Source: Opitutales bacterium
GTDB taxonomy: Bacteria; Verrucomicrobiota; Verrucomicrobiia; Opitutales; Coraliomargaritaceae
DNA: 37,116 nucleotides
NCBI GenBank assembly: GCA_018607135.1
Contig: JABBCA010000024.1
Coordinates: 1-37,116, forward strand
Direction of reading: 5' to 3'
A program made the translations under genes and the position numbers. Position 1 is the first letter of the stretch. Each line of letters starts with the position of its first letter. The notes below the pieces were generated by a model that saw only the letters and a program-made list of their open reading frames with translations, had not been told where the DNA came from and did not search any database. Below, piece by piece: positions 11,064 through 26,228 of this stretch.

Positions 11064-11091
11064 TGAAGATCGAACGTCGAACGTCCAATTT
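11064..11091. repeat. Heptad-phased micro-repeat (CGAACGT)
   Basis: Four consecutive 7-base units: TGAAGAT, then CGAACGT twice, then CCAATTT. It is part of the non-coding leader between the rhomboid start and the ferredoxin gene and precedes a longer array of the same period at 11146. Confidence 0.55.
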
Positions 11092-11145
11092 TGAATAAAT
11101 GATGCTTTTTTCCTTTGAGAGTGCACTCGATTGGAAATCTGCCCT

Positions 11146-11201
11146 TGGATGCTGGATGCTGGATGCTGGATGCTGGATGCTGGATGCTGGATGCTGGATG
11201 C
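11146..11201. repeat. Tandem heptamer array, eight exact copies of TGGATGC
   Basis: Eight perfect head-to-tail copies of TGGATGC (56 bases), ending in a degenerate unit TCGATCT. It lies between the divergent rhomboid and ferredoxin genes. Perfect copies imply recent expansion by slippage, so copy number may vary between strains. Confidence 0.95.
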
Positions 11202-11261
11202 TCGATCTTCAGCCGCGCTTCTCCGCTTGACTCATAAAGGAAAAGTGCGATCTTGCGTGCC

Positions 11262-11498
11262 ATGGCAGAAAAAGACGAAAAATGGCCGGAAAATGTTAAG
11301 GGCAAGTTCTATGTCGATGAGCAATGCATCGACTGCGATCTATGCCGTGAAACAGCTCCGGATTTCTTTACCCGTAACGAAGACGGAGGTTATTCCTTCG
11401 TGCATGCTCAGCCGAAAACTGAGGAAGACATCGAGCTTTGCATGGAAGCACTCGAAGGTTGCCCAGTTGAGGCGATTGGTGAAGACGGTGAAGATTAG
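11262..11498 (+). CDS. Single-cluster [4Fe-4S] ferredoxin
   Basis: A 78-residue electron-transfer protein. C22, C25 and C28 in [16 protein letters not shown] and C67 in EGCPVEAIG are the four ligands of one [4Fe-4S] cluster; C60 is an extra cysteine as in other single-cluster ferredoxins. It is strongly acidic at the C-terminus. The ATG at 11262 starts [12 protein letters not shown]; a TTG three codons upstream (11253) lies at better spacing from AAAGGA (11236-11241), so the start could be there. The redox partner cannot be told from context: the neighbours are a rhomboid protease and an LpxR-like protein. Confidence 0.9.
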
Positions 11499-11523
11499 AT
11501 CGTTGAAGCACTATTCATTTTTT

Positions 11524-11555
11524 AAATAGCCCGTGAGTGATCACGGGCTATTTTT
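11524..11555. terminator. Bidirectional Rho-independent terminator
   Basis: A 13-bp perfect stem (AAATAGCCCGTGA / TCACGGGCTATTT) with loop GTGA. Ts continue on the plus side and an A-rich flank gives Ts on the minus side, so it can serve both the ferredoxin gene and the convergent LpxR-like gene. Confidence 0.88.
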
Positions 11556-11564
11556 ATAAGGAGT

Positions 11565-11582
11565 GCGGACATTTTTGTCCGC
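11565..11582. repeat. GGACA/TGTCC palindromic repeat, copy 2
   Basis: GCGGACA-TTTT-TGTCCGC, a 7-bp perfect stem with a 4-base loop, beside the terminator between the ferredoxin and LpxR-like genes. Confidence 0.7.
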
Positions 11583-11607
11583 GTTGTTGGAGTCCAGCGC
11601 TCGAGAG

Positions 11608-23816: not shown

Positions 23817-23823
23817 GAATTGA

Positions 23824-23858
23824 AATTAGCAATTAGCTATCAGCCATTCGCCATCAAA
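23824..23858. repeat. Heptad-phased micro-repeat after pdhC
   Basis: Five 7-base units: AATTAGC twice, then TATCAGC, CATTCGC and CATCAAA. They fill the space between the pdhC stop and the terminator. Confidence 0.6.
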
Positions 23859-23870
23859 TGGCGTAGCCAT

Positions 23871-25169
23871 TTAAACGAGCATGATCGAAGGGGACTCGAT
23901 GATCTCCTTGAGTGCTTGCAAGTATTGAGCGCCGACTGCGCCGTCGATGGTGCGGTGGTCACCAGATAGACCGATCTTCATGACTTCACCAACTACGATC
24001 TCGCCTGCGTCGTTGACGACTGGCTTCTTGATCGTTGCACCGATGCTGAGGATCGCTGCGTTGTTTGGATTGATGATGCCGTAGAAGTCGGAGATGCCGA
24101 ACATTCCAAGGTTGGTCACTGTCAATGTGGAGCCGCTCATCTCGTCTGGAGTGAGCTTCTTGTTGCGTGCTTTCTTAATCAGCACCTTTGCCTCGGCACC
24201 GATTTCACGAAGACCTTTGGTCTCTGCGGCACGGATGACAGGAGTCACGAGGCCGTCATCAATTGCGACGCCGAATGCGAGGTGCACGTTAGGGTGTTGC
24301 TTGATGGTGTCACCTTCCCAAGAGCGATTGATCGCAGGGACGCGGCGCACGGCTTCAGCCGCTGCCTTAAGTGTGAGGTCGTTGACCGAGAACTTTGTGC
24401 CGCCATGTTCTGGTGGGAGGTCTGCAAGCTTGCCGTTGAGCTCCTTGCGAAGCGCTGCAAGTGGCGCGCCGTTGACTTCGATCTGTAGGTAGAAGTGTGG
24501 TGCTTGTGTCTTTGAACCCACGAGTGCCTTGCCAATGCTCTTACGCATGTTGCTGACAGGGATGTCGAGAGCTTCAAGTGTGGCCACTGGAGCGGCAGGT
24601 GCTGGAGCACTTGCGCCCGTTGCAGCAGGAGCGGCTGCGCCTGGCTTGGCGTTGAGCACGTCGTCTTTAACGATGCGACCCCCCGGGCCAGATCCTTGAA
24701 TGCTTGCGAGGTCGATGCCTTTTTCAGCTGCGATTTTCTTGGCTAGTGGAGAAGCTTTAACGCGACCACCAGTTGAAGAAGCTCCAGGTGCTGCTGGAGT
24801 CGGAGCAGGTGTTGCGGCAGGAGCTGGCTCAGGTGCTGCGGGAGCTGGAGCAGGCTCTGGTGCTGCCGGAGTTTCGACTTCAGATGCAGGTGCGGCTGGC
24901 GCACTGCTTTGTGCTTCGGGTGCCTCTTCGCCTTCTTCGCCAATTGCAGCGATGGGGTCTCCGACGGCGACTTCAGCGCCTTCGCCACAGTATTGTTTGA
25001 TGAGAACGCCATCATCAAAGCACTCGACTTCCATCGTTGCCTTGTCGGTCTCAACTTCCGCGATCATGTCGCCGCTGGAAATTGCATCACCTTCGTTTTT
25101 TAACCATCTGACCAGCGTGCCCACTGTCATGGTGTCGCTGAGTTTGGGCATATCAATGAGAGTCGCCAT
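23871..25169 (-). CDS. pdhC: Pyruvate dehydrogenase E2, dihydrolipoamide acetyltransferase
   Basis: A 432-residue core subunit that transfers acetyl groups from the lipoyl arm to CoA. The N-terminal lipoyl domain (1-80) carries the lipoylated lysine K43 in EVETDKATMEV. A long Ala/Pro linker (about 85-135) follows, then the E1/E3-binding domain (VKASPLAKKIAAEKGIDLASI, about 137-175), a second linker, and the catalytic domain with the active-site motif DHRTIDG (H405, D409). Only one lipoyl domain is present. It is the last gene of pdhA-pdhB-pdhC; no E3 gene (lpd) is in this window. Acetoin or branched-chain complexes share this architecture, but the E1 sequences favour pyruvate. Confidence 0.92.
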   Translation of the reverse strand: MATLIDMPKLSDTMTVGTLVRWLKNEGDAISSGDMIAEVETDKATMEVECFDDGVLIKQYCGEGAEVAVGDPIAAIGEEGEEAPEAQSSAPAAPASEVETPAAPEPAPAPAAPEPAPAATPAPTPAAPGASSTGGRVKASPLAKKIAAEKGIDLASIQGSGPGGRIVKDDVLNAKPGAAAPAATGASAPAPAAPVATLEALDIPVSNMRKSIGKALVGSKTQAPHFYLQIEVNGAPLAALRKELNGKLADLPPEHGGTKFSVNDLTLKAAAEAVRRVPAINRSWEGDTIKQHPNVHLAFGVAIDDGLVTPVIRAAETKGLREIGAEAKVLIKKARNKKLTPDEMSGSTLTVTNLGMFGISDFYGIINPNNAAILSIGATIKKPVVNDAGEIVVGEVMKIGLSGDHRTIDGAVGAQYLQALKEIIESPSIMLV

Positions 25170-25179
25170 ATTTATAAGA

Positions 25180-25207
25180 ATTTAGAAGTTAGTAGAAAGA
25201 ATTTAGA
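25180..25207. repeat. Heptad-phased micro-repeat between pdhB and pdhC
   Basis: Four 7-base units in register: ATTTAGA, AGTTAGT, AGAAAGA and ATTTAGA again (21 bases apart). They fill most of the 43-base gap between the two genes. Confidence 0.55.
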
Positions 25208-25212
25208 AGCGC

Positions 25213-26190
25213 TTACGCCATTGTTTTGAGCGCGCCTTCGATGATGCGCTCTTCGTTTGGAATTTGCCAGTCTTCAAGGGGCTTCGCGTAAATTTGCGGT
25301 GCATCGATTGAAGAGACGCGATGGATCGGTCCGTCAAGGTAGTCGAATGCCTTCAACTGAATAATGTGAGAGATCTGAGCATCGACACCGCAGTAAGGTT
25401 TGTTTTCTTCAACCAGAAGCACACGGCCTGTCTTTTTGACAGAGTTGAGAATGGTCTCTTCGTCGAGCGGGCGTATGGAGCGGAGGTCGACGACTTCCAC
25501 GCTGATACCGTGCTTTTCTTCGAGTGTCTTGGCTGCTTGGAGTGAAAGCATGGCACAGCGACCGTGTGATACGATGGTCATGTCTTCGCCTTCCTTAAGC
25601 ACATTAGCGACGCCGAGCTCGACGATGTATTCCTCTTCAGGAACTTCCCACTTCTCACCATAGAGAAGGGTGTTTTCCATGACGAAGACGGGGTCGTCGT
25701 CGCGAATCGCAGCCTTCATCAGGCCCTTCGCGTCGTAGGCATTGGATGGGCAAACCACCTTCAAGCCAGGGTGGTTGGCCACCATGTTTTCAGGAGTGTG
25801 CGAGTGGGTCGCACCTACGTTGGTGCCGCCATTGGCAGGGCCACGGACCACGATCGGAATGTTCATCAAGCCACCAGACATGTAGCGGCAGAAAGAGGCG
25901 TTGTTGAAGAGTTGGTCGATTGCAACGTAGCTGAACGACATGAACATCATCTCGATCACTGGGCGGACGCCGAGCGCGGACGCGCCGATGGCGAGGCCGG
26001 AGAAGGCTGCTTCAGAGATGGGAGTGTCGATCACGCGCTTGTCGCCGTGCTTTGCCCAGAGGCCTTCGGTGACTTTGTAGGCGCCGTTGTATTGAGCGAC
26101 TTCTTCGCCCATGATGCAGACGTTTTCGTCGCGTTGGATCTCTTCGTCGAGTGCTTGCTTAATAGCTTCGCGGTAAGTGATAAGTGCCAT
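25213..26190 (-). CDS. pdhB: Pyruvate dehydrogenase E1 component, beta subunit
   Basis: A 325-residue subunit that forms the alpha2-beta2 E1 enzyme with PdhA and helps bind thiamine diphosphate. Family phrases are all present: ITYREAIKQALDEE at the start, MGEEVAQYNGAYKVTEGL, then the conserved RVIDTPISEAAFSGLAIGA, MFMSFSYVAIDQLFNNA, and the C-terminal VDLRSIRPLDEETI and RVLLVEENKPYCG. Full length. The gene lies 57 bases from pdhA and 43 from pdhC, both gaps filled largely by heptad-phased repeats. No Shine-Dalgarno site is apparent before its ATG. Confidence 0.95.
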   Translation of the reverse strand: MALITYREAIKQALDEEIQRDENVCIMGEEVAQYNGAYKVTEGLWAKHGDKRVIDTPISEAAFSGLAIGASALGVRPVIEMMFMSFSYVAIDQLFNNASFCRYMSGGLMNIPIVVRGPANGGTNVGATHSHTPENMVANHPGLKVVCPSNAYDAKGLMKAAIRDDDPVFVMENTLLYGEKWEVPEEEYIVELGVANVLKEGEDMTIVSHGRCAMLSLQAAKTLEEKHGISVEVVDLRSIRPLDEETILNSVKKTGRVLLVEENKPYCGVDAQISHIIQLKAFDYLDGPIHRVSSIDAPQIYAKPLEDWQIPNEERIIEGALKTMA

Positions 26191-26200
26191 TTTGTAAAAG

Positions 26201-26228
26201 GAGTTAGAATTCAGAATTCAGGATTCAG
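26201..26228. repeat. Heptad-phased micro-repeat between pdhA and pdhB
   Basis: Four 7-base units: GAGTTAG, then AATTCAG twice, then GATTCAG. They occupy half of the 57-base gap between the pdhA stop and the pdhB start. Confidence 0.65.

Follow-up and report, generated by a model that had tools for sequence, protein, structure and literature searches.

The window, a stretch of 37,116 nucleotides from an Opitutales bacterium (contig C21, one of 106 in an assembly of 3.53 Mb), carries short intergenic arrays of tandem 7-nt units, here called heptad arrays. As judged by Pfam, the neighbouring genes encode a rhomboid protein, a ferredoxin, a polypeptide deformylase, a response regulator, an IS66 transposase and E1-alpha, E1-beta and E2, the last three being pyruvate-dehydrogenase-type genes. 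An earlier reading of this DNA, referred to below as the original prediction, had listed eight places with runs of heptads. We gave each gap its best local score at lag 7 (match +1, mismatch -1), compared the score with 500 first-order resamples of the gap itself, and ran Tandem Repeats Finder (TRF) on the window as well. The features are as follows.

11065-11088, no strand assigned: degenerate heptads GAAGATC GAACGTC GAACGTC CAA; score 11; TRF 11070-11085
11146-11206, no strand assigned: near-perfect TGGATGC array, 8.7 copies (TRF); score 52, reached by 0 of 500 shuffles
16004-16033, minus strand: degenerate heptads filling a 37-nt gap; score 11, 1 of 500 shuffles
16381-16527, no strand assigned: two claimed arrays, GTGGAAC pairs spaced 14 nt; at shuffle level at lag 7
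23824-23854, minus strand: AATTAGC/TATCAGC/CATTCGC array; score 14, 0 of 500 shuffles
25177-25208, minus strand: AGAATTT/AGAAGTT array filling a 43-nt gap; score 9, 11 of 500 shuffles, the weakest
26199-26228, minus strand: AGAATTC array in a 57-nt gap; score 15, 0 of 500 shuffles

Heptad arrays were found at six of the eight places (scores 9 to 52), but not at 16381-16443 and 16500-16527. These two sit in a single 371-nt gap and do not rise above chance: a best lag-7 score of 5 was equalled by 232 and 235 of 500 shuffles, respectively, and the lag-14 scores were 8 and 10. All eight places lie between genes, as predicted, in that they fall outside every gene of our dicodon model. The claim that the runs mostly fill whole gaps held for the 37-nt and 43-nt gaps and for about half of the 57-nt gap, but not for the rest.

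Most arrays close to a gene share a polarity, which we term the border rule: the strand that runs 5' to 3' out of the gene and across the gap contains more G than C. The array at 25177-25208, between the E1-beta and E2 genes and 7 nt upstream of the E2 start, has no G on its sense strand. The array at 26199-26228, for which relatives carry orthologous arrays with drifted units, lies 8 nt upstream of the start of E1-beta (transketolase-like, PF02779/PF02780) and has more C than G on the sense strand (8:3). Upstream of the polypeptide deformylase gene (PF01327), the plus strand of 16004-16033 lacks C, which is to say that the sense strand lacks G. On the stop side, 16 nt past the end of the E2 gene (2-oxoacid acyltransferase, PF00198), the sense strand of 23824-23854 has G over C (8:4), in agreement with the rule. 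The two remaining arrays share the divergent gap 11015-11261, both in its middle. The one at 11065-11088, 50 nt from the rhomboid gene start, has equal G and C and cannot be scored for the rule, nor does it have a separate shuffle test, because it shares its gap with the TGGATGC array; the latter lies 131 nt from the rhomboid gene start and 55 nt from the ferredoxin gene start. Another contig of the same genome (G000), C96, opens with a TGGATGC array too, at bases 7-62, which is probably an assembly break at the repeat.

To place the window in its genome, it was analysed together with 40 further stretches, in all 696,258 bases or about 20% of the genome, in which the dicodon model called 573 genes. 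When compared with RefSeq for 42 E. coli genes, this model placed 37 stops and 22 exact starts correctly, so that distances to starts are approximate. The expectation that lag 7 should stand out in intergenic DNA only was borne out in this sample. Over 434 gaps (74.8 kb) the autocorrelation at lag 7 was 0.2698 against a mean of 0.2607 for the other lags, or 2.9 standard deviations (sd), with no rise at lag 7 in coding DNA (0.2430); other raised lags in the same gaps were 14 (2.4 sd), 21 (2.1 sd), 4 and 6 (1.9 sd) and 1 (5.8 sd). With a score of at least 10 as the cut-off, the numbers of intergenic arrays at lags 4 to 15 were 0, 0, 15, 28, 5, 5, 5, 3, 14, 1, 25 and 5, lags 12 and 14 being harmonics of 6 and 7, and the coding arrays at lag 7 numbered 6. 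Gap by gap (411 gaps), 23 lag-7 arrays compared with 2.65 in shuffles and 14 lag-6 arrays with 2.65, while lags 5, 8, 10, 11 and 13 gave 0-5 against 1.5-3.0. In the intergenic DNA of this sample, tandem units of 7 nt exceed both the chance level and units of other lengths. The proposal of one period with many unit sequences is real and mainly intergenic, but its wording that the period is always seven applies to the six window arrays and not to the sampled genome, which also holds lag-6, lag-8 and other arrays.

Nor is the phenomenon peculiar to one Verrucomicrobiota genome. The pooled sample of the window's family (14 genomes, 1.85 Mb) contained 102 intergenic lag-7 arrays; 8 of the 14 genomes carried them, and the 6 without were sampled at just 15-40 kb each. 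Across this family, 86 arrays had 36 distinct consensus units, among which TAACTGA was absent. Other lineages were reached through a single word, three copies of TAAYTYC, which occurs in at least 118 stretches of a species-genome collection; titles among the matches listed include Cyanobacteria, Bacteroidota, Clostridia, Chloroflexi relatives, Armatimonadota, Riflebacteria, Ignavibacteria, Acidobacteriota, Campylobacterota and Verrucomicrobiota. Eighty such cross-phylum loci were analysed, and four further genomes (Calothrix, Chitinophagaceae, Armatimonadota and Paludibacteraceae) were picked because they carry the word. This choice biases the word counts in both sets; orientation was not selected, and results with those target arrays removed are reported below. 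With target arrays omitted, the cross-phylum loci held 175 intergenic arrays at lag 7 against 4-24 at each of lags 4-6 and 8-13. In the four genomes lag 7 was the top non-harmonic lag, with 52, 42, 28 and 10 arrays against maxima of 8, 6, 2 and 5 at those other lags. A 50-kb stretch of E. coli, with merely 8 kb of intergenic DNA, had no lag-7 array.

The word is patchy within the phylum (19 of 288 genomes with 501 overlapping matches, of which a single genome contributed 294), and the reversed word, used as a control, gave 12 matches in 7 of the 288 and none in 12 genomes chosen for carrying TAAYTYC. A chance or low-complexity artefact would suit the two window places at chance level, but set against the shuffled gaps and the reversed word it is barely credible, and for the class of arrays as a whole such an explanation is already refuted.

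With regard to placement, the family arrays lay mostly in co-directional gaps (68, or 4.9 per 10 kb), less densely in divergent (13, 2.2) and convergent gaps (4, 0.9). They crowd at gene edges. The number of arrays per 10 kb within 20 nt of an edge and in mid-gap was 14.6 and 1.1 in the family, 70.7 and 12.2 in the cross-phylum loci, 94.6 and 11.8 in Calothrix, 67.1 and 11.1 in Chitinophagaceae, 51.5 and 13.2 in Armatimonadota, and 25.1 and 4.1 in Paludibacteraceae, that is, about 4- to 13-fold higher at the edge in all six samples. Outside the family, a larger share of stop edges than of start edges bears an array (44 of 170 and 17 of 68 against 17 of 170 and 3 of 76 in the cross-phylum loci).

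For the border rule, an edge array was defined as lying within 20 nt of one gene edge, arrays fitting both edges were tallied apart as whole-gap arrays, and equal G and C counted as a tie. Read from edge to gap, 163 of the 182 edge arrays had G over C, 14 had C over G and 5 were ties (binomial 2e-33). At starts the bias was 51:0 in co-directional and 7:2 in divergent gaps, and at stops 76:11 in co-directional and 29:1 in convergent gaps. It was present in every lineage group sampled, as assigned from record titles, with 43:6 in the window's family, 54:4 in Cyanobacteria, 38:2 in Bacteroidota, 9:0 in Firmicutes and 19:2 in others. When the target arrays were left out, the ratios were 38:3 for Cyanobacteria, 21:2 for Bacteroidota, 5:0 for Firmicutes and 13:1 for others. 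Mid-gap arrays were nearer random (104:73), and leaders and trailers free of arrays had a G/C bias that was absent or weak. The TAAYTYC arrays of other phyla fitted the expected orientation towards the nearest edge in 37 of 45 cases where that edge was a stop and in 18 of 24 where it was a start (17 of 86, at locus ends, were left unclassified). Of the descriptors compared, G minus C separated the arrays best (163:14, 5 ties), followed by purine minus pyrimidine (154:26, 2 ties) and A minus T (113:58); Calothrix alone was weak under the purine descriptor (13 facing, 7 away). In the family, the sense strand was pyrimidine-rich in 22 of 22 arrays that lay no more than 25 nt from a start and well away from the opposite edge, and purine-rich in 17 of 21 arrays past a stop (3 opposite, 1 tie). 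The polarity may not be special to period 7, because edge arrays at lags 8 and 9 also tend to have the G strand outward (9:1 and 10:0); no such tendency was seen at lags 6, 10 and 12 (9:7, 5:7 and 2:7), and arrays of periods other than 7 are few. It is the border rule that looks new, heptad crowding of gaps being already known in many bacteria; our searches, confined to open-licence papers in PubMed Central, found no statement of the rule.

A G strand running outward from a gene is at the same time a C strand in the leader and a G strand in the trailer, so that geometry does not separate processes acting on DNA from those acting on RNA. The main rival to the explanation we favour is selection at the RNA level, in which G-poor, unstructured leaders are required, C-poor trailers are tolerated or favoured, and heptads serve as cheap unstructured spacers. 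Such leaders would be devoid of start codons and competing structure and friendly to S1 or cold-shock proteins, with tRNA leaders and trailers under a similar rule. Compositions fit these constraints: G made up 1-5% of the sense strand in arrays before starts, as opposed to 17-19% in array-free leaders, and C after stops made up 5-6% against 19-20% outside the family and 16% against 24% within it. A Shine-Dalgarno-like motif was present at -17 to -5, by a crude motif test, in 9% of 1427 family genes and in 0 of 43 family genes with a leader array, and the window leader 25170-25212 is predicted to be unfolded as RNA (0 kcal/mol). The direction-dependence of the whole-gap arrays and the constant distance from array to start in orthologues, both described below, fit as well, and MacGregor suggested a translational role for TAACTGA repeats (PMC4679880). 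On the other hand, a reason for C-poor trailers is lacking, TAACTGA with its one G and one C falls outside the G/C form of the rule, and tRNA 5' ends obey the rule where translation is uninvolved. We consider this alternative possible but, on balance, doubtful.

The tRNA evidence comes from genes located with ARAGORN. In the Armatimonadota genome (G036), 30 loci from 47 tRNA matches plus four earlier stretches yielded 34 distinct tRNAs with 60 flanks. Fourteen flanks had an array within 20 nt, 7 at 5' ends and 7 at 3' ends; all lay 0-8 nt away and all 14 had the G strand outward. The ends of tRNAs do not depend on gene calls. The evidence is strong in one genome only (14 arrays), yet it demonstrates that neither a start nor a stop codon is required, and translation alone cannot account for the border rule. 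A reading based on Shine-Dalgarno sequences or translation only was rejected for this reason and for the rarity of such motifs in the family. Rho sites were rejected too, since Cyanobacteria, said to be without Rho (PMC13289151), obey the rule at 54:4. A third candidate, cassettes of stop codons in all six frames, seemed enriched in the family (units with stops on both strands 40 of 86, 16.9 expected), but outside the GRARTTA words the distinct units gave 6 of 32 against 6.7, and those of the four-genome sample 16 of 55 against 13.0; it was dismissed as a general reason. The cross-phylum loci had a modest excess of such units (26 of 84, 18.0 expected, sd 3.3).

The explanation we favour, tentatively and with slightly less than even confidence, is that these are slippage arrays bounded by functional sequence, with a gene-agnostic process behind the polarity at the border. 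Heptameric simple sequence repeats would grow, shrink and re-homogenise through slippage, so that the unit drifts and the 7-nt period stays; the basis for this is a published comparison of Cyanothece PCC 8801 with PCC 8802, whose differences are for the most part insertions or deletions in steps of 7 nt at TAACTGA arrays (PMC4679880). The arrays would persist for long in the same orthologous gaps, as seen in a few gaps of the family. A process acting on dispensable DNA, and stopping where conserved sequence begins, would then leave the G-bearing strand running 5' to 3' from gene into gap at functional borders, with near-random orientation in mid-gap. We propose that it is gene-agnostic because starts, stops and, in one genome, both tRNA ends obey; a candidate may be the directional loss of the DNA that flanks a strand-asymmetric array on one side.

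Persistence was examined in orthologous gaps. Both between E1-alpha and E1-beta and between E1-beta and E2, relatives carry arrays whose distance from the start stays at 7-10 nt, with drifted words (AGAATTC, AGAATTA, AGAAGTT and GAATTAG); in some, a second, inverted array follows the upstream stop, and in several small-genome relatives these gaps are short and array-free. For 77 orthologous gaps in 150 genome pairs, which are non-independent, an array was present in both members in 16, in the own genome only in 16, in the relative only in 6 and in neither in 112 (odds ratio 18.7, p 1.6e-8, subject to the same non-independence). The orthologous gaps speak for persistence with concerted drift of the unit over fresh birth, and the arrays are often old, not newly made, because many recur in orthologous gaps with drifting units. 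Of the idea that arrays are newly made at gene edges, the concentration at edges stands, and the new making is not supported. An enzyme with a 7-bp step, as put forward in the original prediction, may play a part. A single strain pair of Trichormus variabilis was identical over two 49-kb stretches of its plasmids, so that no change in array length was on view.

Several observations weigh against the favoured explanation. Between co-directional family genes, 13 of 14 whole-gap arrays had C over G on the sense strand, which shows that the direction of the genes has an influence there. Beside the arrays we saw no tail in which older repeats decay: residual lag-7 match was near chance within 7 nt, and both sides were similar. 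Orthologous gaps with and without an array showed no clear difference in length (22 comparisons, median +4, p 0.36). As for generality, three other genomes together gave only 2 arrays scored "in", 1 scored "out" and 1 tie among 99 flanks of 65 tRNAs, and the window's family had no array at 31 flanks of 16 tRNAs; in 100 kb of a Trichormus variabilis plasmid with RefSeq annotation, lag 7 was not in excess (5 intergenic arrays, equal to lag 6), and there was a single edge array, which obeys the rule. In print, GGGAATC repeats of Xanthomonas are about equally frequent on either strand (30% and 35%; PMC4692102), and 22 intergenic TAACTGA sets in a Microcystis sample were mixed in orientation (PMC4679880). 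The cross-phylum loci contributed 3 tRNAs with 6 flanks, of which 1 had an array scored "in". An array creeping by dislocation mutagenesis had been considered as well and was rejected; it predicts a decayed tail, and none was seen. A skew in homogeneity within arrays was confined to the family sample (34 vs 15); overall there was none (134 vs 108, the other way of counting).

Gaps with arrays at both edges raise the question of pairing. It could be that the arrays are arms of intercistronic stem-loops, either repetitive extragenic palindrome (REP)-like or processing hairpins, and that single arms are remnants. In the partner test, which skipped 19 of 85 family arrays for too little room, 24 of 66 arrays had an inverted partner scoring at least 10 in the same gap, compared with 10 direct, 10 reversed and 15 complement partners. 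Both-edge gaps exceeded independence (6 vs 1.0, 13 vs 6.3 and 8 vs 2.8), degenerate heptads of a Nostoc trnL intron form a hairpin (PMC3488679), and two gaps fold well beyond their shuffles, L116 at -45.4 kcal/mol (z -9.9) and L125 at -46.8 (z -8.1). Yet 42 of the 66 arrays had no inverted partner, where REP-like palindromes have paired arms, some both-edge gaps bear different words on their two sides, and two window gaps folded unremarkably (z -1.1 and +0.4); we find this origin distinctly unlikely. The L116 gap, at 6907-6976, is composed of variable heptads throughout, its halves being complementary in unit order.

The head-to-head pairs and the polarity also fit the geometry of interstitial telomeres, and the arrays might be healed DNA ends, that is, G-rich heptads that a telomerase-like or slippage-prone activity put on the 3' ends of breaks. 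DRT10 reverse transcriptases do produce tandem-repeat DNA (PMC12632851), but a PF00078 reverse transcriptase was not detected in the array-bearing G002 and G036, and random breaks fail to explain arrays a few nt from gene edges, which makes this origin highly unlikely. The corresponding search (RVT_1) gave one weak match in the window's own genome (E 7e-11). A bolder form of the gene-agnostic reading, which we think unlikely, would treat every border of functional DNA, coding or tRNA and across several phyla, as a polar barrier for strand-asymmetric tandem repeats, with G-strand-outward caps in the geometry of fused telomeres. If true, it would mean that a DNA process so far unrecognised, either replicative or end-healing, is widespread, has a 7-nt step built in and reshapes intergenic DNA regardless of transcription and translation.

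Heptameric repeats have already been described as over-represented in bacteria (Mrazek 2007, quoted in PMC4692102). As here, those repeats have period 7, are intergenic and have no fixed unit, and slippage with a polymerase footprint was the idea offered for their length; the border orientation rule does not appear in the excerpted account of them in PMC4692102. The TAACTGA repeats of Beggiatoaceae, Cyanobacteria and Bacteroidetes are likewise oriented heptads near gene starts (PMC4679880): 147 of 170 sets point toward a start codon and 12 toward a stop, and one seven-copy set just past a stop is reversed. They consist of a single unit with one G and one C, similar words being rarely repeated, whereas many units oriented by G and C are found here. 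The family resembles them in having oriented arrays close upstream of starts that lack a Shine-Dalgarno sequence (the 22 of 22 and 0 of 43 above), but it has no one dominant unit. The GGGAATC and GGGGA(C/T)T repeats of Xanthomonas and Nostoc are also intergenic heptads, on average 28 nt from the end of the upstream gene, and two species of Xanthomonas have 70 and 75 inverted pairs of them (PMC4692102). Their strand use in Xanthomonas is about even relative to the flanking genes, and the border rule is not visible there. They have been proposed to form G-quadruplexes (PMC4692102), of which most units here are incapable; the main family units AATTAGG, AACGTCG, AACTTCT and AAGAATT have no GGG tract. 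The trnL-intron heptads share the period, vary in copy number and pair into a hairpin, but belong to one intron (PMC3488679) and not to a whole genome. The STRR heptanucleotides of heterocystous cyanobacteria have period 7 too, but are single named units as opposed to the many units genome-wide here. One array of AATGACC units (L023, 16195-16229) is what we take to be a rotation of the complement of STRR2.

If the border rule is genome-wide, it gives a quantitative handle on a 19-year-old loose end, the bacterial preference for heptamers, and any mechanism must account for both length and strand polarity at gene edges, tRNA ends included. It would also aid annotation, since the orientation of an array tells on which side the gene lies, and would help to distinguish mutational and regulatory interpretations of TAACTGA and similar repeats. 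Should it fail in reference-annotated genomes, the arrays are ordinary microsatellites.

Some further repeats were encountered on the way. Long arrays of at least 13 units (GAGGGCT/GAGACTT and CTCCAGT) occur in the relatives G010 and G018, at L127 3939-4072, L096 2818-2925 and L114 16541-16634. An octad array at L035 9242-9303, in which CTGAAACG and CTGAAATG alternate, has a lag-8 score of 40. The lag-6 excess is mostly due to a separate intergenic GATTAA hexad element in inverted pairs, an imperfect palindrome of 6-nt units in which a TCTTAATC arm is followed by a GATTAAGA arm. It was found at the following places, and small BLAST matches to it are dispersed over many places in relatives.

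L039 9927-10026: hexad element
L033 14294-14375: hexad element
L029 17316-17396: hexad element
L046 12625-12921: hexad element

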